The position numbers were made by a program, and so were the translations under genes. Of a DNA stretch of 18,632 nt, positions 817 to 10,626 are shown piece after piece (position 1 is the first letter of the stretch; every line of letters starts with the position of its first letter). Source of the stretch: an uncultured Lachnospiraceae bacterium (GTDB taxonomy: Bacteria; Bacillota; Clostridia; Lachnospirales; Lachnospiraceae); assembly GCA_902797565.1 (NCBI GenBank), contig CADBTO010000229.1:1-18632 (forward strand). The letters run 5' to 3'. The notes beneath the pieces were generated by a model that ran no database searches, was not told where the DNA came from, and was given only the letters and a program-made list of their open reading frames with translations.

Positions 817-1662
817 TTGGATGAAGCGTACAGGAAAGAACACAAGCTCCTGTCTCCGGAAGAAATCAAGGAGATTCGGGAGCAGTACGGGCTGAGCCAA
901 AGAGGCCTGGCGCGGGTTCTTGCTTGGGGAGACAAGACGATTCACCGATACGAAAAGGGGGCTGTGCAGGACAAGGCACACAACGGGCTCCTGCTTCTGA
1001 TGAAGGATCCCCAGAACATGAAGCAATATCTTCTGGAATGCGAGACCAACGTGCCGGAAAAGCAGGTACAGCGTGTTCTGCGCCACATTGAATTGCTGGA
1101 AAAAACCGTGACGCGGGAGCAGGGCAGGCGGATTATGCGGAGAGCGCAGGGCGGCGAGGCGTCCGAGGCCAACGGGATGAAACGGTTTGATCCGGAGAAG
1201 TTTGCGGCGGCAGCGGTTTATGTGGCGGCGCATGCGGACAGGGCGCAACGCATCCGGTTTTACGGATTATTGTTCTATGTGGATATGCTGCACTACTCCA
1301 GGAAAGGGACGTCTCTGACAGGAACCTGTTACCAGCGTGCTGCAGAGGGCGTGGCGCCGAAGAATGCGGATATCCTGATGGGCGCACTGCAGACGCAAAG
1401 TCTGATCCAGATTGACGCGGAGTTTGTGAATGATGTGGAAGTGTATCCGGTCAAGGCTGCGGCAAAAATACCGGAGGGGCTGGAGGCGGACGAGACAGCG
1501 CTGATCGATGAAGTGCTTCAGGCACTCCGGGATTCCAGCAGCTTTGATATCGCAAGTGCCATCCGCAAGGATTCTGCCCTGGCGCATCTTTTGCCGGGAG
1601 ATGAGATTTCCTATGTTGAAGTTTCAAAATCGGGTGAGGTGGTGAAGTTGATTGATCCGTAA
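817..1662 (+). CDS. HTH plus Panacea/SocA-like (DUF4065) protein, antitoxin-type regulator
   Basis: The protein has 281 residues when started at TTG 817, which lies 9 nt after AGGAGG (802-807); the longer in-frame GTG at 757 is inside the promoter. Residues about 10-70 form a helix-turn-helix of the MqsA/YgiT type (LSPEEIKEIREQYGLSQ, then WGDKTIHRYEKGA). Residues about 125-235 resemble the Panacea/SocA fold (IRFYGLLFYVDMLHYSRKG, TSLTGTCYQ, then a GPVP-like turn replaced by GVAPKN). In relatives an N-terminal CxxC zinc ribbon often precedes the HTH; here it is missing and translation starts where the ribbon would end. Panacea domains are known as antitoxin modules able to neutralise varied toxins. 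No small toxin gene is adjacent, so the partner is unknown. The end overlaps the next gene by 11 nt. Confidence 0.85.
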   Translation: MDEAYRKEHKLLSPEEIKEIREQYGLSQRGLARVLAWGDKTIHRYEKGAVQDKAHNGLLLLMKDPQNMKQYLLECETNVPEKQVQRVLRHIELLEKTVTREQGRRIMRRAQGGEASEANGMKRFDPEKFAAAAVYVAAHADRAQRIRFYGLLFYVDMLHYSRKGTSLTGTCYQRAAEGVAPKNADILMGALQTQSLIQIDAEFVNDVEVYPVKAAAKIPEGLEADETALIDEVLQALRDSSSFDIASAIRKDSALAHLLPGDEISYVEVSKSGEVVKLIDP

Positions 1663-3691
1663 GTTGGAAAACGGGATCGCTGCGTTTGCGCTGTCTGTGG
1701 TACTGGCGATTGCGTCAGTGTTTGGAAGCATTGGATTCCAGAGAAGTGCGGAGGCGGCAGCATGGGGGAACCCGGAATACACCGGTGTGATCCAATGTCC
1801 GGAAACGGTGGGCGGCCTGAAGGCGGCATTCTATTATACAGACGACTTTTTTGCACATGCGCCGGATCAGTATGATGCGTCTCTGGCACAGGCATCGTTG
1901 GTGCTGGCTGCCGCATCCTGCAATGATGGATCAGGGAAGACGCAGAGCCGTTCGGTCGAAGCGGCACTGGTACGGATGGGTTTTTCTGATTTCCAGGCGA
2001 ATGAGGATTATCAGAAAACGCCGACGGTGGATTCGATGGGTGTTGCGGCGGCAAAAAAGAAAATCAGCCTTCCTTCAGGAAAATATACGCTGGTTTCTGT
2101 ACAAATGCGGAGTGCCGGGTATGAAAAGGAATGGGAGAGCAATTTCGACCCCGGCACAGAGGGTGACCACAAGGGATTTGCAGAATCGGCAGAAAAAGCA
2201 AAGGCTTTCCTGGAAGAGTATCTGGCGGCGAAGAAAGTCAAAGGAGATGTGATCTTCTGGATCACGGGATATTCCAGAGGGGCGGCCGTGGCAAACCTGC
2301 TGGCTGGATCTTTGGACGGAATGGCGGCAACTGGCGGAGACGCGGCACAGCTGGGCGGGATTGCTCTGGAGAAAGGGCGTATCTATGCCTATACGTTTGC
2401 AACACCGGCAGGAACTATCCGGTCGGATGCAAAAGCGGATGCGTATACGAATATCTTCAATATCATCAGCCCGTATGATCTTGTGCCCAGGGTTGCTCCG
2501 GAACGCTGGGGGTTCCAGCGGTTTGGGAACGATGTATGCCTGCCGCAGGAAGGAGATACGGATTTCCCGGAAAAGCTTGCGGCGATGCAGAAGCAGCTGG
2601 GAAAACTGGACAGTGGAACGGCTTATGATCCGTCCTCATTTGCGGTATATAAGGCTGTGGTACAAAATGCCGAATCCGGCACGCAGATCGAATATGTGAA
2701 GAATCCGGAAGATGCAAGCAAAATGCCGGAGTTTCTGGATGAGGCAATGGAAAGCCTTGCAGGAACGCATATGAAAGACCGTGCGGCATACGCAGGCTGC
2801 CAGACTGCGGTACAGGGGCTGGTGGAGATCAATTACAATGCTTCGGATTCTGAAAAACAGATGATGCAATCCTATCTGGGCGGCCTTTCCTTTTCCGGGG
2901 GAATCCCGCAGGATGGCGGGACGGAGCGGAAGAAGATCCGGGAGAGCCTGGATCAGAAGCAGATGTTTGCGCTCAGTCTGGGATTGAAACAGATGGGAAT
3001 CCGGGATACGGACGCCTTTTTGGACAGCCTCCAGAATCTGCTGGATATAACGGAACCGTTTCTGACTGAGCAGGAGTACCGTTATTCGGCGACACTGCGG
3101 CAGAATGCTCCGCTGATTCTGGCATCCCATACGCCGGCTGTGTATCTGGCGTGGCTCCAGAGTGCGGACAGTGGATTCGCGAAAAAGACAGCTGGTGCAA
3201 AGCAGCCTGCAGAAGTGCGCTGCACCTACACACAGTCCCAGGGCAGACAGAAACTGGAAATGCGTGTGTATGACGGTACTAGTATTACACAGCTGCTGCG
3301 CGAAGAGCGTGATGCAGCGGGCAAGCTGGAATCACTGGAATGTGTGGTATACAGCAAAGGGAAGCAGCTGGCGAAAGAACGGTTCGTGCCGCTCTCCGGA
3401 AAGAAGGCGCTGAAGATCCGTACGGTGTCCACGAAAAAGAAGACGGTGGAATTGGCGGATACGTTTGTGTTGTCGGACAAAAGCACCTGGAAGGTGACAA
3501 CAGTCGGAGCAAACGCATTCAAACAATGTAAAAAGCTGAAGAAGATCCGTCTGGGAAAACATACGGTCCGTTTTGAAAAAAGCGCATTTTCAGGTCTGAA
3601 GGAGGGGGCGGTTCTTGCGGTGCCCAAAGCAAACGTGAAAAGCGTGAAGAAAAGCTTGAAAGGGACGGGACTGGTGGTCAAAAAAGGCTGA
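1652..3691 (+). CDS. Secreted lipase-like alpha/beta hydrolase with C-terminal LRR_5 segment
   Basis: The protein has 679 residues from TTG 1652, overlapping the previous gene by 11 nt, which suggests translational coupling; a weak GGTGAGG lies upstream. A TTG at 1664 is an alternative start. Residues about 1-37 are a Sec signal peptide with hydrophobic core and an AEA-A cleavage site. The hydrolase part resembles the class 3 lipase/DUF2974 group: the nucleophile elbow is GYSRG with S208, a likely acid is D276 in SPYDLVP, and H493 in ASHTPAVYL is the best candidate histidine. The triad is inferred from order and context. Residues about 580-665 (VGANAFKQCKKLKKIRLG) match a short BspA-type leucine-rich repeat. 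There is no LPXTG anchor or membrane tail, so it is probably released or loosely wall-associated. The substrate is unknown. Confidence 0.8.
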   Translation: MIRKLENGIAAFALSVVLAIASVFGSIGFQRSAEAAAWGNPEYTGVIQCPETVGGLKAAFYYTDDFFAHAPDQYDASLAQASLVLAAASCNDGSGKTQSRSVEAALVRMGFSDFQANEDYQKTPTVDSMGVAAAKKKISLPSGKYTLVSVQMRSAGYEKEWESNFDPGTEGDHKGFAESAEKAKAFLEEYLAAKKVKGDVIFWITGYSRGAAVANLLAGSLDGMAATGGDAAQLGGIALEKGRIYAYTFATPAGTIRSDAKADAYTNIFNIISPYDLVPRVAPERWGFQRFGNDVCLPQEGDTDFPEKLAAMQKQLGKLDSGTAYDPSSFAVYKAVVQNAESGTQIEYVKNPEDASKMPEFLDEAMESLAGTHMKDRAAYAGCQTAVQGLVEINYNASDSEKQMMQSYLGGLSFSGGIPQDGGTERKKIRESLDQKQMFALSLGLKQMGIRDTDAFLDSLQNLLDITEPFLTEQEYRYSATLRQNAPLILASHTPAVYLAWLQSADSGFAKKTAGAKQPAEVRCTYTQSQGRQKLEMRVYDGTSITQLLREERDAAGKLESLECVVYSKGKQLAKERFVPLSGKKALKIRTVSTKKKTVELADTFVLSDKSTWKVTTVGANAFKQCKKLKKIRLGKHTVRFEKSAFSGLKEGAVLAVPKANVKSVKKSLKGTGLVVKKG

Positions 3692-3706: not shown

Positions 3707-4372
3707 ATGGGAAAAGTAGTTGAACCGGAATTGATCTATGAAGATACGTCCATCCTGGTGGTATACAAGCCGTCTTTGATGGCGACGGAAAGCCGGGACG
3801 GGAGTGCGATGGATCTGGTTTCATGGATTCGGAATTATCGGGCTCGCAAGGGTGAAGAACCCTATGTTGGCGTAGTCAGCAGGCTGGACCAGCCTGTGGA
3901 AGGTATTTTGTGCTTCGGCAAGACGAAGGCGGCGGCTGAGGCACTGTCCAGACAGCTTCGGGAGCGGAAATCAACCAAAAAGTATATCGCCGTGACTTCG
4001 AAAAGCTCTCTTCCCAAAGAGGGCATCCTCACGGATTATCTGGTGAAGGACAGCCAGGCGATGAAGGCGAAGGTGGTGTCTCCGGATGATCCGCGTGCGA
4101 AAAAAGCGGAGCTTTCATACCGGATTATGAAAGAACTGGATAATGAGTTTCTGATGGAAATCAGCCTGAAGACGGGGAGGTTCCACCAGATTCGGGTACA
4201 GCTTGCCTATCGGATGACACCCATTGTGGGGGATATCAAGTATGGCGGGCGTGCAACAGGGGGAGCCCTGGCGCTTTGCGCAAAGGAAGTTTCTTTCCTG
4301 CATCCGGGCACGGGCAAACCGATCCACTTTGAGATCAATCCGTGCAATCCGGAATTGCGGAAGTTCCTGTGA
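3707..4372 (+). CDS. RluA-family RNA pseudouridine synthase
   Basis: This 221-residue protein converts uridine to pseudouridine in rRNA or tRNA, by family. The catalytic aspartate is D61 in [11 protein letters not shown], corresponding to the usual HRLDxxTSG, here with S in place of H and PVEG in place of TSG. Further family blocks are [20 protein letters not shown] and a C-terminal [12 protein letters not shown]. There is no N-terminal S4 domain, so it is a short RluA/RluD-like form. AGGAGA (3697-3702) lies just upstream of the ATG, 15 nt after the hydrolase stop. The RNA target cannot be read from sequence. Position next to proS and cca fits a translation-related role. Confidence 0.9.
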
Positions 4373-4389
4373 AAAGGAGTTCACACATC

Positions 4390-5826
4390 ATGAAAGAAAA
4401 AAAATTAGTAGAAGAGATCACCTCCATGGAGGAGGATTTCACCAGGTGGTATACGGATGTTGTAAAAAAGGCGGAGCTGATGGACTATTCTTCCGTCAAA
4501 GGCTGCATGATTTTCAAACCAAACGGGTATGCAATCTGGGAGAACATTCAGCGCCAGCTGGATCAAATGTTCAAAGAGACTGGGGTGGAGAATGTATACC
4601 TGCCGCTGTTTATTCCAGAGCATTTGCTTCAAAAAGAAAAAGACCATGTGGAGGGGTTTGCGCCGGAGGCTGCATGGGTGACGCATGGCGGGGATGAGGA
4701 GCTGCAGGAGCGGCTTTGTGTCCGGCCGACTTCTGAAACGCTGTTCTGCGATCTGTATTCAAACATCATTCATTCTTATCGGGATCTGCCGAAAGTATAT
4801 AACCAATGGTGTTCGGTTGTCCGTTGGGAGAAGACAACACGTCCGTTCCTGCGTTCGAGTGAATTCCTGTGGCAGGAAGGTCATACAGCACATGCCACTG
4901 CAGAGGATGCACAGGCACGGACGATCCAGATGCTGAATGTTTATTCGGATTTCTGCGAACAGGTTCTGGCGATTCCGATGATCAAGGGTCAGAAGACGGA
5001 CAAGGAAAAGTTTGCCGGAGCGGAGGCAACCTATACGATTGAGGCGCTGATGCATGATGGGAAAGCGCTCCAATCCGGGACAAGCCACAACTTCGGTGAT
5101 GGATTCGCAAAGGCGTTTGATATCCAGTATACAGATAAAGAGAACCAGCTGCAGTATGTCCATCAGACATCCTGGGGCGTGTCCACCCGCCTGATCGGGG
5201 CGCTGATTATGGTGCATGGAGATGACTCAGGCCTTTGCCTGCCGCCCAAAGTGGCGCCGGTACAGGTCAATATTGTACCAATTCAGCAGAACAAAGAGGG
5301 CGTGTTGGACGCGGCACAGGGCATCAAACAGGCACTTTTGGATGCCGGGATCCGCGTGACGCTGGATGATTCGGACAAGCGTCCCGGATGGAAATTCGCG
5401 GAAGCAGAGATGCGCGGCGTGTCGCTGAGGATCGAGGTTGGGCCGAAAGACTTGGAAAAAGGGACCTGTGTGTTTGTACGGCGTGACAACCGGGAAAAGA
5501 CGGTATGCGGCATCAATGAGGCGGCATCCATGGCAAAGACCCTGATGGAACAGATGCAGGCGGATATGCTGGAGCGGGCACGGCAGCATTTGCAGGAGCA
5601 TATATATGATGCCCACAACTACGAAGAATTCAAGGAAATCGTCACAAACCGGCCGGGGTTCATCCGCGGAATGTGGTGCGGTGATGTGGCTTGCGAGGAA
5701 AAGATCAAAGAGGATACCACAGCAACCAGCCGTTGTATGCCGTTTGAGCAGGAGCAGATTTCAGATACCTGCGTCTGCTGCGGACGGAAGGCGCAAAAGC
5801 TGGTATTCTGGGGAAAGGCATATTAG
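4390..5826 (+). CDS. proS: Prolyl-tRNA synthetase, type 3 (archaeal/eukaryote-like form)
   Basis: It charges tRNA-Pro with proline. The ATG at 4390 gives 478 residues, the usual size of the short ProS type 3, and follows AAGGAG (4374-4379) by 10 nt; the frame is open 16 codons further upstream but without a better site. Class II motifs are visible: RPTSET before motif 2, motif 2 starting [11 protein letters not shown] at R145 with FLWQEGH, and [14 protein letters not shown] followed by [17 protein letters not shown] for motif 3. An anticodon-binding domain follows ([12 protein letters not shown] onward). The C-terminal domain carries the C461-x-C463-C464 cluster and ends in WGKAY, as type 3 enzymes do. 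There is no editing (INS) insertion between motifs 2 and 3. It lies 17 nt after the pseudouridine synthase gene and 2 nt before cca. Confidence 0.96.
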
Positions 5827-5828
5827 AA

Positions 5829-8786
5829 ATGAAGATTACCCTTCCAGACGAGGTAACAAAAATCATCCATATCCTGGAGGAACAGGGCTATGAAGCCTAT
5901 GCGGTAGGCGGCTGCGTGCGTGATTCTGCACTGGGAAGAGTGCCAGAAGACTGGGACATTACAACATCCGCACTGCCGGAGCAGGTCAAAGCATGTTTCC
6001 GAAGGACGATAGACACCGGGATTGAGCATGGCACGGTGACGGTACGGCTGAATCACAAAAGTTTTGAGGTTACGACCTACCGGCTGGATGGAAAATATGA
6101 GGATTCCAGGCATCCGAGCAGCGTGTCCTACACCCCTTCGCTGGAAGAGGATTTGAAACGCCGGGACTTTACGATCAATGCGATGGCATACCATCCCCGG
6201 AAGGGGCTGGTCGATCTGTTTGGCGGGATGCAGGATCTGGAAGGGAAGGTCATCCGTTGTGTTGGAAATGCGCAGGAGCGTTTTTCAGAGGATGCGCTGC
6301 GTATGCTCCGTGCGCTGCGGTTTTCGGCGCAGCTGGGCTTTTCGATCGCGCAGGATACACAGGATGCGATTGCGGCGCAGGCGGGGCGGCTGGAAAAGAT
6401 TTCAGCGGAGCGTATCCGGGACGAGCTGGTCAAGCTGCTCCTGTCGGAACATCCGGACCGGCTGGAACTGATGTACCAGCTGGGGCTGTCCAGGATATTT
6501 TTCCCGGAATGGGATGCGATGATGGAGACGGAGCAGCATACGAAGCACCACAAGTATAGTGTGGGCTGGCATACGATCCAGGTCATTGCATCGATTCCTT
6601 CCGGTGTGCCGTCTGAAAAGGCATTGCATCTGGCGGCTCTGCTGCACGATGTGGCAAAGCCTGCGATGAAGAAGACAGACAAAAAAGGAAACGACCATTT
6701 TACAGGGCATCCCCAGGCAGGAGAGGCGATGGCACGGCGGATTCTGCGGCGGTGGAGGTTGGATAATGACACGATTGCGCAGGTCTGCGCATTGGTGAAG
6801 TTCCATGACGAGCGGCTGCAGCTTGTGGGCGGAAAAGAAAACGAGCGGCATGATATGCGTGTGATGCGCAGGATGGTCGCCCGTACCGGCAGTGATCTGT
6901 ATCCGGAGCTTTTCTATCTGCAGCGGGCAGACATTGCGGGACAGAGTGATTATAAACAGGAAGAAAAACTGGCGCTGGTGGATCGGGAAGAGGCAGCCCT
7001 GCGGAAAATCCGTGAAGAGGAGGAATGTACCAGCCTGAAAGACCTTGCCATAGACGGGCGGGAATTGATTGCGCTGGGAGTTCCGAAAGGACGGGAGGTG
7101 GGAGAGATGCTGAAAAAGCTTCTTTCTATCGTGATTGAAGATCCGGGGATGAACGATCTGGAAAAACTGAAAAGTCAGGTGAAGGATTTCCTGCTGAATC
7201 TTTGCGTGGCACTCCTGATCCCGATCTGTGCCTATGGGCTTGCCGGGTGTGCGGGGATTCGTGATGCATCTGCCACAGATACGAGCGGCATCCATCGTCC
7301 GAAAATTCTGAATGCAGCAGAGGATGGGACAGATGGCATGGCAGGCGTGGGAGAAGCGTCCGGAGCAGATGATGCAGCAGGCGTGGGAGAAACGTCCGGG
7401 ACAGATGGCGCGGAGGACGGGGGAACAGCGTCCGGGGGCACATCGGCAGGCGTGGGAAAAGTTGCGGAGGCATCCACACTTTCAGTGTCCGGGCGTTCTG
7501 AGGTGGTCATTCTTGTGGATATCAAGCCGAAACGGGAATATCTGATCGTGGAGGACATTGTCACCGGACAGCAATACCGTTATGCTTATGGGCTGACCAC
7601 GGAATTTCTGGATAAATACGGAAACAGCGCGCCGGCTTCGGATTTCTCGCCGGGTATGATGATTGAGCTGGGCGAGATGACCTTTGACGGGATATTGAGC
7701 AGTGTCCGGAAATCGGACAAAGTATGGGAATATGACGAGCTTTCGGATTATACGCTGGATACGGATCGGGAACTTCTGGTGATCATGGGGAAACGGTACC
7801 GGATCCGCAGGAATATTCCGGTGTTTTCCGGAAAGAACGTCGTTGAGATCGAGGATATCGGGGAAAATGATATTCTCCGGGTGTTCGGACAGGGGAAGGA
7901 TGTGCTTTCCGTGGCAGTTACCACGGGCTATGGCTATCTGTCTGTCAGCAATACATCCCTGTTTGATGGAAGCCTGCTATGGGTCGGGGATGAGATCGTG
8001 ACCAAAGTGAATGGCGATGCGAAGATCGAGGTGCCGGAGGGCAACTATGCGGTAACGGCCGCCCATAATGGTTATGGCGATACGTTGACCTTCAAAGTCA
8101 GGCGGGGGAAGACAACGGAAGTGGACCTTTCCAGGTTCCAGGGCAGCGGGCCCAAGAGCTGTGAGGTGCGCTTTGACGTTTCTGTCGATGGTGCCAAGGT
8201 CTACCTGGATAATGAAAAGGTCAGTACGAAGGAAACCCTGTCTGTGAAATATGGGAAGCATGCGCTGCGTGTGGAAGCGGACGGGTATAATACCTGGGAG
8301 CGGACGTTGTTTGTTAATTCTCCCAAGGCGGTAGTCCGTCTGGATCTTTCTGACGAACAGAAAAGCAGCAGTTCGTCATCCGCATCGCGCAGCAGTTCTT
8401 CGGATTCCGGAAATTCGGCTGCACAGCAGGGGGATTCCGGAAATGAAACGGAAATACAGGAAGAAGGCGGGGCAAACAATACGGGAAGCAGTACTTCGCG
8501 CATGAATTCCAGCTCCAGTAGTTCCTCATCCGGAAATGGGAACCGGCGCAGCAGTGATTCCAGCAGCACGGGTGGGAATTCCAGTACGGGAAACAGCACC
8601 CGAAGGACACCGGATACGAGTTATGGCGCGACAGGCAGAGGAACCACAGCCTCCGGGGACAGCGGAAGTACAGGCAGCAGTTCCGGTTCAGGAAGTTCCA
8701 GTCAGAATACAACAACAGCCGAGGATACGGAACTGGATTATCTGAACACGTTGTCTGACGCGATTTCAAATATGTTTGGAAATTAA
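5829..8786 (+). CDS. cca: CCA-adding tRNA nucleotidyltransferase fused in frame to a PEGA-domain lipoprotein
   Basis: The open frame runs 985 residues. Residues 1 to about 450 are a complete CCA-adding enzyme, which builds or repairs the tRNA 3' CCA end: GGCVRD (27-32), the metal-binding D41 and D43 in EDWD, RRDFTINAMAY, an RNA-binding region, and an HD domain with H273-D274. The enzyme should end near residue 450. Instead the frame enters a lipoprotein signal peptide (hydrophobic 454-470, lipobox LAGC with C474), a Gly/Ala/Asp-rich tandem repeat, a beta-rich domain (about 555-695), two PEGA domains (about 699-772 and 777-841, the second with YGKHALRVEADGYNTWER), a Ser/Gly-rich tail (845-962) and a short C-terminal end. 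A cytoplasmic tRNA enzyme joined to an exported lipoprotein makes little biological sense as one chain. A frameshift artefact or internal start is likely. The gene starts 2 nt after the proS stop. Confidence 0.85.
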   Translation: MKITLPDEVTKIIHILEEQGYEAYAVGGCVRDSALGRVPEDWDITTSALPEQVKACFRRTIDTGIEHGTVTVRLNHKSFEVTTYRLDGKYEDSRHPSSVSYTPSLEEDLKRRDFTINAMAYHPRKGLVDLFGGMQDLEGKVIRCVGNAQERFSEDALRMLRALRFSAQLGFSIAQDTQDAIAAQAGRLEKISAERIRDELVKLLLSEHPDRLELMYQLGLSRIFFPEWDAMMETEQHTKHHKYSVGWHTIQVIASIPSGVPSEKALHLAALLHDVAKPAMKKTDKKGNDHFTGHPQAGEAMARRILRRWRLDNDTIAQVCALVKFHDERLQLVGGKENERHDMRVMRRMVARTGSDLYPELFYLQRADIAGQSDYKQEEKLALVDREEAALRKIREEEECTSLKDLAIDGRELIALGVPKGREVGEMLKKLLSIVIEDPGMNDLEKLKSQVKDFLLNLCVALLIPICAYGLAGCAGIRDASATDTSGIHRPKILNAAEDGTDGMAGVGEASGADDAAGVGETSGTDGAEDGGTASGGTSAGVGKVAEASTLSVSGRSEVVILVDIKPKREYLIVEDIVTGQQYRYAYGLTTEFLDKYGNSAPASDFSPGMMIELGEMTFDGILSSVRKSDKVWEYDELSDYTLDTDRELLVIMGKRYRIRRNIPVFSGKNVVEIEDIGENDILRVFGQGKDVLSVAVTTGYGYLSVSNTSLFDGSLLWVGDEIVTKVNGDAKIEVPEGNYAVTAAHNGYGDTLTFKVRRGKTTEVDLSRFQGSGPKSCEVRFDVSVDGAKVYLDNEKVSTKETLSVKYGKHALRVEADGYNTWERTLFVNSPKAVVRLDLSDEQKSSSSSSASRSSSSDSGNSAAQQGDSGNETEIQEEGGANNTGSSTSRMNSSSSSSSSGNGNRRSSDSSSTGGNSSTGNSTRRTPDTSYGATGRGTTASGDSGSTGSSSGSGSSSQNTTTAEDTELDYLNTLSDAISNMFGN
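7179..8786 (+). CDS. PEGA-domain lipoprotein read as a separate protein (alternative to the fusion)
   Basis: A GTG at 7179 in the same frame would start a 535-residue protein whose first 24 residues form a textbook lipoprotein signal: positive MK, hydrophobic stretch, lipobox LAGC with the lipidated Cys at position 24. The mature part would be a tandem-repeat spacer, a beta-rich domain, two PEGA domains and a long Ser/Gly tail, suited to an envelope-bound surface protein; PEGA domains are small beta modules common in envelope proteins. There is no clear ribosome binding site before GTG 7179, so initiation would depend on coupling to cca. An in-frame ATG at 7149 would give a 34-residue signal. 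This entry overlaps the fused frame and is an interpretation. Confidence 0.45.
   Translation: MKDFLLNLCVALLIPICAYGLAGCAGIRDASATDTSGIHRPKILNAAEDGTDGMAGVGEASGADDAAGVGETSGTDGAEDGGTASGGTSAGVGKVAEASTLSVSGRSEVVILVDIKPKREYLIVEDIVTGQQYRYAYGLTTEFLDKYGNSAPASDFSPGMMIELGEMTFDGILSSVRKSDKVWEYDELSDYTLDTDRELLVIMGKRYRIRRNIPVFSGKNVVEIEDIGENDILRVFGQGKDVLSVAVTTGYGYLSVSNTSLFDGSLLWVGDEIVTKVNGDAKIEVPEGNYAVTAAHNGYGDTLTFKVRRGKTTEVDLSRFQGSGPKSCEVRFDVSVDGAKVYLDNEKVSTKETLSVKYGKHALRVEADGYNTWERTLFVNSPKAVVRLDLSDEQKSSSSSSASRSSSSDSGNSAAQQGDSGNETEIQEEGGANNTGSSTSRMNSSSSSSSSGNGNRRSSDSSSTGGNSSTGNSTRRTPDTSYGATGRGTTASGDSGSTGSSSGSGSSSQNTTTAEDTELDYLNTLSDAISNMFGN
7341..7472 (+). repeat. Degenerate 36-bp tandem repeat (12 residues) inside the lipoprotein spacer
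   Basis: Two closely similar 36-bp units (7341-7376 and 7377-7412) begin GCAGGCGTGGGAGAA and encode AGVGEASGADDA and AGVGETSGTDGA. A diverged 33-bp unit (7413-7445) and a partial unit from 7446 (AGVGK) follow. The array lies between the lipobox and the folded domains, so it probably acts as a flexible, length-variable linker. Confidence 0.75.
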
Positions 8787-8883: not shown

Positions 8884-10626
8884 ATGGGATACAAAGAAGA
8901 GTACGAAAAGTGGCTGTCGGATGACTATTTCGATGCGAAGACCAAGGAAGAACTGAAGGGGATCGCGGGCGATGAGAAGGAGATCGAGGATCGCTTCTAT
9001 CGTGCCCTGGAGTTTGGTACGGCAGGTCTCCGCGGGGTGATCGGGGCAGGCACGAACCGTATGAACGAGTACACGGTGCGCCAGGCGACCCAGGGCCTTG
9101 CAAACTACATCAACAAGGTTGGCGGGGCGCAGAAGGGCGTCGCAATCTCTTATGACTGCCGGAATATGTCTCCGGAGTTTGCTGATTTTGCAGCGCTTTG
9201 CCTCGCGGCAAACGGGATCAAGGCATATGTGTTTGATTCCCTCCGCCCGACCCCTGTACTGTCCTATGCTGTCCGGAAATTGGGCTGCATTGCCGGGATC
9301 AATATCACGGCAAGCCACAATCCGCCTGAATACAACGGCTATAAGGTGTATTGGGAAGATGGTGCACAGATCACGCCGCCTCATGACAGCGGGATCATGG
9401 ACGAAGTGAAGGCTGTTTCAAACTTCGCGGATACCAAGACAATGGAGAAGGAAGAGGCCATCTCCAAGGGGCTGTACCAGGTCATTAACAAAGAGATCGA
9501 CGATCCGTATATGGACGAGCTGAAAAAGACAGTGCTCCATCAGGATGCGATCGATGCGGAAGGGGACAATATTACGATTGTCTACACACCGCTGCACGGG
9601 ACAGGGAATATTCCGGTTCGTCGGATTCTTTCGGAATTGGGATTCAAGAATGTCTTCGTCGTTCCGGAGCAGGAGAAGCCGGACGGGAATTTCCCGACCG
9701 TGTCTTATCCGAATCCGGAGGCAAAAGAGGCCTTTGCCCTGGCACTCAAGCTTGGCGAAGAGAAGAATGCAGATCTGGTGCTGGCAACGGATCCGGATGC
9801 AGACCGTCTTGGCGTCTATGTCCGGGATAAGGAGGGCGCGTACCACTGCCTGACCGGGAATATGTCCGGCTGCCTGATCGGGAATTATGTCATCAGCCAG
9901 CGTCTGGCACGGGACGGGAAGCTGCCGGAGGATGGTGCGTTCGTCCGTTCGATCGTTTCCTCGAATATGGCAGATGCGATCGCGAAGAAGTATGGAATCC
10001 AGTTGATTGAAGTGCTGACCGGATTCAAATATATCGGCGGCAAAATCCTGGAGTTCGAGACCACTGGCAAGGGAACCTATCTGTTCGGTATGGAAGAGAG
10101 TTATGGCTGCCTGACAGGGACGTATGCCCGTGATAAGGACGCTGTGGTGGCATCTATGGCGCTTTGTGAGGCGGCAGCGTATTACAAGACCCAGGGCAAG
10201 ACCCTTTGGGACGCGATGCTCGATCTGTATGAGGACGTTGGATATTACCAGGATGCGGTCAGCTCCATCGGATTGTCCGGCAAGGAAGGGATCGAGAAGA
10301 TCGGCAAGATCATGGTAGATCTGCGTGCGAATGCGCCGAAAGAGATTGGCGGCTATGAAGTGCTTAAGGTTCGGGATTACCAGACGGATGAGATCCGGAC
10401 CGTGGCGGACGGAAGTGTGGTACCGACCGGTCTTCCGAAGTCAAACGTCTTATATTACGAACTTTCGGATGATGCCTGGGTTTGCGTCCGTCCGTCCGGT
10501 ACGGAGCCGAAAATCAAGTTCTATTTCGGCATCAAAGGGGCAAATCTGGACGATGCGCAGCAGAAATCGGATGCAATGGCATCGGCTTTAGACCAGCTTT
10601 CTAAAGAATTGATCGACAGAAACTAG
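8884..10626 (+). CDS. Alpha-phosphohexomutase (phosphoglucomutase/phosphomannomutase)
   Basis: This 580-residue enzyme interconverts hexose 1- and 6-phosphates, feeding glycogen, cell-wall and exopolysaccharide precursors from glycolysis. Four active-site blocks are visible: the phosphoserine loop TASHNPPEYNGYK with S144, the magnesium site DPDADR (D303, D305, D307), the sugar-binding loop GMEESYG (402-408), and the phosphate-binding RPSGTEPK (536-543). Length and motif spacing match the bacterial PgcA/YbbT type of about 570-580 residues, rather than the shorter GlmM (about 450). Whether glucose or mannose phosphate is preferred cannot be decided. The ATG follows AAGGAGG by about 5 nt, a strong site. 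It could have its own promoter in the gap, but none is clear. Confidence 0.94.
   Translation: MGYKEEYEKWLSDDYFDAKTKEELKGIAGDEKEIEDRFYRALEFGTAGLRGVIGAGTNRMNEYTVRQATQGLANYINKVGGAQKGVAISYDCRNMSPEFADFAALCLAANGIKAYVFDSLRPTPVLSYAVRKLGCIAGINITASHNPPEYNGYKVYWEDGAQITPPHDSGIMDEVKAVSNFADTKTMEKEEAISKGLYQVINKEIDDPYMDELKKTVLHQDAIDAEGDNITIVYTPLHGTGNIPVRRILSELGFKNVFVVPEQEKPDGNFPTVSYPNPEAKEAFALALKLGEEKNADLVLATDPDADRLGVYVRDKEGAYHCLTGNMSGCLIGNYVISQRLARDGKLPEDGAFVRSIVSSNMADAIAKKYGIQLIEVLTGFKYIGGKILEFETTGKGTYLFGMEESYGCLTGTYARDKDAVVASMALCEAAAYYKTQGKTLWDAMLDLYEDVGYYQDAVSSIGLSGKEGIEKIGKIMVDLRANAPKEIGGYEVLKVRDYQTDEIRTVADGSVVPTGLPKSNVLYYELSDDAWVCVRPSGTEPKIKFYFGIKGANLDDAQQKSDAMASALDQLSKELIDRN

Follow-up and report, generated by a model that had tools for sequence, protein, structure and literature searches.

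Organization of the locus

The window (18,632 nucleotides; contig CADBTO010000229.1 of an uncultured Lachnospiraceae bacterium) carries at 5829-8786 of the plus strand an uninterrupted frame of 985 codons in which a CCA-adding enzyme, a hydrophobic segment and a PEGA lipoprotein follow one another. The first-pass annotation had described one frame that joins a complete CCA enzyme to a lipoprotein with lipobox Cys474, and we confirm this description. The features of the fused gene and its neighbours are as follows.

4342..5826, plus strand: prolyl-tRNA synthetase (Pfam ProRS-C_1, tRNA-synt_2b, HGTP_anticodon); 2-base gap to the fused gene
5829..7169, plus strand: predicted class II CCA-adding enzyme, residues 1-447; motifs invariant in 41 selected fused proteins
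7179..7181, plus strand: GTG codon 451, proposed internal start; ribosome site -3.3 kcal/mol against a control median of -4.1
7188..7247, plus strand: predicted internal signal-anchor, residues 454-473, a hydrophobic segment of 20 residues
7248..7250, plus strand: lipobox Cys474 (LAG-C), from the alignment of 41 selected fused proteins
7251..7496, plus strand: low-complexity, repeat-rich linker, residues 475-556; pLDDT mostly <50
7497..7931, plus strand: beta-rich stretch with no assigned family, residues 557-701; boundaries by judgement
7932..8153, plus strand: transthyretin-like beta domain, residues 702-775; CarboxypepD_reg match below cut-off
8184..8342, plus strand: PEGA domain (PF08308), residues 786-838; Pfam score 37 bits, above the gathering cut-off of 20.8
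8343..8720, plus strand: Ser/Gly/Thr-rich tail; low-confidence model with no regular structure
8721..8780, plus strand: short C-terminal helix, residues 965-984; low-confidence model; Y971 nearly invariant
8884..10626, plus strand: phosphoglucomutase/phosphomannomutase, downstream neighbour of the fused gene

By eye, a prolyl-tRNA synthetase-like gene also lies upstream in 13 of 20 related stretches compared, and a phosphoglucomutase/phosphomannomutase-like gene lies 3' of the lipoprotein in several related stretches. Elsewhere in the window, a helix-turn-helix/Panacea (SocA-like) gene (757-1662) runs into the first codons of a 679-codon frame (1652-3691) that contains a Lipase_3 domain.

The CCA-adding half

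Judged by its sequence, the N-terminal half is a complete class II CCA-adding enzyme that ends at about residue 447. It has the GGxxRD/DxD catalytic head and the RRD and EDxxR motifs of class II tRNA nucleotidyltransferases, matches NCBIfam PRK13299 with 313.5 bits (cut-off 290) and agrees in overall fold with known CCA enzymes. D41/D43, RRD 111-113, E154-D155-x-x-R158 and H273-D274 do not vary among 41 aligned fused proteins; these representatives, the others being 35-50% identical to the protein of the window, were chosen by eye from 99 fused proteins among the 120 database matches listed, leaving out near-copies (mostly one group of 862 aa) and the short or partial P0095, P0098 and P0104. 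In contrast to the class II CCA enzyme of Bacillus stearothermophilus (PDB 1miv), the enzyme of the window runs on, with no stop, into a membrane segment and a lipoprotein. An export signal at the N-terminus of the CCA half was considered and rejected, as the first 30 residues have, by eye, no hydrophobic stretch.

None of the 20 readable tRNA genes of the window's genome encodes CCA (21 matches above the score cut-off; loci L146-L166). The genome search gave one cca match in this 81% complete assembly. A single cca gene (at E 1e-20) is also seen in each of the eight genomes of the genus with a completeness of 90% or more, so a second enzyme is improbable in the genome of the window as well. 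Because no readable tRNA gene encodes CCA and one cca was found, the fused enzyme should be needed by the cell.

The lipoprotein half

In a Foldseek search, the PEGA half had no clear whole-length structural relative (best match 6fwv_B, E 5.5e-5, query TM-score 0.18). The C-terminal helix with Y971, which follows the low-complexity Ser/Gly tail, is perhaps a docking peptide. The motif around Y971 is, by eye, often YLxTLS.

PEGA lipoproteins encoded next to cca in other Lachnospiraceae are homologous to this half, have a lipobox in nearly all cases and have similar neighbours. In those bacteria, however, the lipoprotein is a gene of its own that overlaps cca, lies just after it or stands one gene of ~330 codons apart, whereas in the window the two are fused in frame. 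The intervening gene (2988-3989 in L076, 3056-4057 in L077 and 3246-4238 in L084), by eye CotS-type phosphotransferase-like, separates cca from the lipoprotein gene in many relatives; the fused locus lacks it.

The junction between the two halves

The halves are linked by a hydrophobic segment that ends in LAG-C474, with the lipobox Cys at +1 and the small residue at -1 that are typical of bacterial lipoproteins. This signal lies at residues 454-473 of 985, and the protein has no signal peptide at its own N-terminus. Cys474 is kept in all 41 selected fused proteins and is the sole invariant residue between N442 and G609. Position -1 is small throughout (G in 19, A in 17 and S in 5), position -3 is L, F, M, I, V or A in 39/41, and the eight residues preceding the hydrophobic core are net positive in 38/41. 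In the AlphaFold model, a single helix (444-471) runs unbroken from the CCA tail and ends at the lipobox, with a mean pLDDT of 90 at 451-460 and 75 at 461-470; a continuous helix of this kind would hold the CCA enzyme close to the membrane.

For comparison, we assembled 49 separately encoded homologues, excluding 13 duplicate or partial locus identifiers as well as short frames and counting one genome twice (L048, L075); for the lipobox, L048 was also dropped, leaving 48. The Cys is lost in two of these 48 (L071 and L072), which have a plain hydrophobic anchor instead, against none of the 41 fused proteins, a difference that alone is not significant. No segment was returned for L125, and seven others missed the pattern solely because their Cys stands at -3. 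Because Cys474 and the small residue at -1 are strictly kept and the Cys is lost in two separate homologues, the lipidation and cleavage site seems to be selected, and the fusions seem to retain a working site of this kind beyond a mere anchor. In L071 and L072, cca and the PEGA homologue share a reading frame and are separated by a stop codon.

A polyprotein model for the fused gene

We propose a model in which the fused gene encodes a bacterial polyprotein whose lipoprotein half would be exported by means of the internal signal, with Lgt and LspA lipidating and cutting the chain at Cys474; we put the probability of this model at about 0.7. In the model, the ribosome would translate the whole CCA-lipoprotein chain, the CCA half would fold in the cytoplasm, and Sec would insert the hydrophobic segment in the N-in/C-out orientation, with the positive charges on the upstream side, leading to export of the PEGA half. 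Lgt would lipidate Cys474 and LspA would cut just before it. Two products would result: a PEGA lipoprotein on the outside of the membrane, and a CCA enzyme whose C-terminus stays anchored in the membrane through the leftover signal peptide; an M50-family site-2 protease might release this enzyme at a later stage. Homologues of Lgt, LspA and the M50 site-2 protease are each found in 13/13 same-genus genomes. LspA would have to cut at a signal that lies 450 residues from the N-terminus, a point against the model. The strict retention of the lipobox suggests that the inserted chain is then split into its two halves. Passages in PMC5837995 deal with ordinary SPII processing and unrelated polyproteins. 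It had been pointed out in the first-pass annotation that the two halves need opposite cell locations; this is right, and it poses no contradiction, since each half would reach its proper side through a signal-anchor in the N-in/C-out orientation.

The same topology would result from an uncut membrane protein, N-in/C-out like the PASTA-type receptor kinases, in which an outside PEGA domain holds the CCA enzyme on a lasting tether and the Cys is maybe lipidated. A permanent tether would fit the modelled helix, continuous with the CCA tail, and the retention of the fusion across a clade of 14 rows of the tree described below, but we consider it unlikely: an anchor alone needs neither the Cys nor the small residue at -1, yet both are present in all 41 proteins, two separate homologues have a plain anchor without the Cys, and LspA and Lgt are present in every genome searched.

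Internal initiation

Alternatively, internal initiation might yield two products, the full CCA-lipoprotein chain and a lipoprotein begun just upstream of the signal segment. We searched for in-frame ATG, GTG or TTG codons in an interval of 26 codons comprising the first core residue and the 25 codons upstream. Seven of the 15 fused genes with DNA have no start in this interval (L006, L007, L010, L016, L017, L070 and L132), as opposed to 1/49 separate homologues (Fisher p 7e-5). An ATG of L132 falls just beyond the interval, 27 codons before the core, and L010 has a GTG inside the hydrophobic core, where initiation would shorten the signal. Ribosome sites have a median of -6.4 kcal/mol in the separate homologues with a start (n=48) and of -4.1 kcal/mol in control intervals within the CCA domain, 29/188 of which have no start; L002 (-0.5) and L005 (+0.4) have essentially no ribosome site. 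The GTG at 7179, with a site of -3.3 that is weaker than the control median, was rejected as a start.

Three fused genes of one clade (L003, L004 and L008) do have an in-frame ATG six codons before the core with ribosome sites of -8.0, -6.2 and -9.3, respectively, and L080 has a junction start with a moderate site (-5.8), making two products by internal initiation possible in these four. It also speaks for internal initiation that the separate homologues begin within the end of cca in several relatives, and start-codon-based overlaps of 4-28 bases between cca and the lipoprotein gene are found in G003, G070, G085, G328, G386 and G398. The essential enzyme, however, would even then exist solely as the full chain, and with seven start-less genes, the two without a ribosome site and the weak GTG, internal initiation is, as far as these start sites tell, no general answer for the fused genes. 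Thus the internal start at GTG 7179 that had been offered as an option fails as a general solution, and an internal start is plausible in L003, L004 and L008; as an account of the fused genes, we regard internal initiation as rather improbable.

Distribution and repeated change of the fusion

The fusion is present in 12/13 same-genus genomes, counting that of the window and also G008, in which the fused gene is split by a contig end across two contigs that we left unjoined. The exception is G003, where cca and the lipoprotein are two genes in different frames with a 23-base overlap. Outside the genus, fusions are found in G035, G370 and G313 (frame cut by a contig end), and in G016, which is congeneric with G370, the two genes are separate. 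A sample of 397 Lachnospiraceae genomes includes at least four with the fusion (G012, G035, G313 and G370), a lower bound, as one of the two listings used a strict cut-off. Among the 120 database matches listed, the CCA domain is followed in 99 by a hydrophobic stretch with a terminal Cys, scored by eye where the pattern failed and including many near-copies from the 862-aa group. The names of two proteins (P0020 and P0064) tie the fused group to 'Candidatus Weimeria'; PMC6974650 concerns Candidatus Weimeria bifida. Lachnospiraceae bacterium C10 (G006 contig; L093; L004), whose record is not labelled a MAG, is fused as well.

That the exact fused protein is known from a single contig of an incomplete (81%) assembly would suit a sequencing, assembly or strain error in which a one-base change fused two genes, but 12/13 genomes of the genus and many further proteins are fused, including P0062, the quick-tree neighbour of the window's protein, and within the window the frame, the signal segment and the lipobox fit together, so that this explanation, already refuted at the level of the family, is scarcely credible. 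The comparison of relatives indicates that the fusion is genuine and not a sequencing error. Between the other two options of the first-pass annotation, this favours a real fusion, which 12 of 13 genomes support, and makes a one-base error very unlikely; nor were the genes always separate when the cca loci of relatives were compared.

Three states of the locus occur in relatives: a gene of ~330 codons between cca and the lipoprotein gene, the two genes adjacent, and the two fused. We built a tree of the CCA half with 88 rows chosen from the sequences retrieved (L061 and L095 are identical), of which 43 are fused, 24 adjacent, 16 separated by a gap of ~1.0-1.25 kb and 5 without a lipoprotein in the stretch examined; 29 fused rows were taken from the database as protein sequence alone. 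On this tree the fused state requires 11 changes (13 on a quick tree), at least six of them forced by well supported branches, although such counts on the CCA-half tree cannot separate gain from loss. The AU test rejects a clade that unites all fused rows (p 2e-37); like the careful tree, it was run under a plain LG+G4 model. The state of the cca/lipoprotein fusion thus seems to have changed repeatedly in Lachnospiraceae, and joining seems to have been more than one event. In our view, a merger of the neighbouring genes can be tolerated because the lipoprotein signal carries a cleavage site of its own, which would explain the recurrence.

Overlaps of 4-89 bases between the stop-to-stop frames are seen in 17 of the 24 adjacent rows. 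Stop-codon readthrough was rejected as a mechanism for the family, because 6/24 adjacent rows are in frame 0 compared with 8 expected by chance. Same-frame cca and lipoprotein genes with an intervening stop are found in G077, G223, G239, G281, G430 and L107 and, by listing, also in G216, G243 and G400; the open frames of >900 aa in the first five of these have a stop between the genes in the DNA and were excluded from the fused count.

Discussion

Both halves of the fused protein belong to known families, and what is unusual is the order of the parts, an internal lipobox being preceded by a soluble tRNA enzyme within a single predicted polyprotein. PASTA-type receptor kinases such as PknB and PrkC combine a cytoplasmic enzyme domain, one membrane segment and exported repeat domains. 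The fused protein shares with them the cytoplasmic enzyme, the single membrane segment and the exported domains but differs in its enzyme and in having a lipobox; we know of no lipobox-type cleavage in PknB or PrkC. The nearest precedent known to us, the FbcH cytochrome b/c1 polyprotein of Bradyrhizobium japonicum, comprises two respiratory subunits and is cut at an internal signal sequence by type I signal peptidase, releasing the exported second half. Like FbcH, the fused protein is a single chain with an internal signal sequence; unlike FbcH, it combines a soluble tRNA enzyme with a lipobox, and hence would depend on LspA. The terms fbcH and signal sequence were not found together in the open-licence PMC literature, and the titles and abstract beginnings of the best-ranked matches in that literature mention neither a fusion of a CCA enzyme with a lipoprotein nor an internally placed lipoprotein signal peptide.

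In a group of gut bacteria, an enzyme on which the tRNAs apparently depend thus seems to be produced solely as the N-terminal part of a membrane polyprotein. If the polyprotein model is correct, the Lgt/LspA lipoprotein pathway would act as a protein-splitting device that makes the fusion of a cytoplasmic gene to a lipoprotein gene tolerable, and LspA would be directly relevant to tRNA maturation. The model also predicts further fusions of cytoplasmic enzymes to lipoproteins. It is tempting to go further and imagine a switch, in which the full chain persists and the state of the PEGA domain, or the rate of cleavage by LspA or the site-2 protease, sets whether CCA addition takes place at the membrane or in the cytoplasm; we think this a long shot, which if true would couple tRNA maturation to the cell envelope.

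Finally, sources that name the fused proteins call them just CCA tRNA nucleotidyltransferase or CCA-adding enzyme, and users of annotations should be warned that these names cover the CCA half alone. According to precomputed Pfam assignments, database matches P0101-P0120 include other cca fusions, with HAD hydrolases (e.g. P0103 and P0106-P0112), a DHH pair (P0101), an amino-acid kinase with PUA (P0113) and a pseudouridine synthase domain (P0114).
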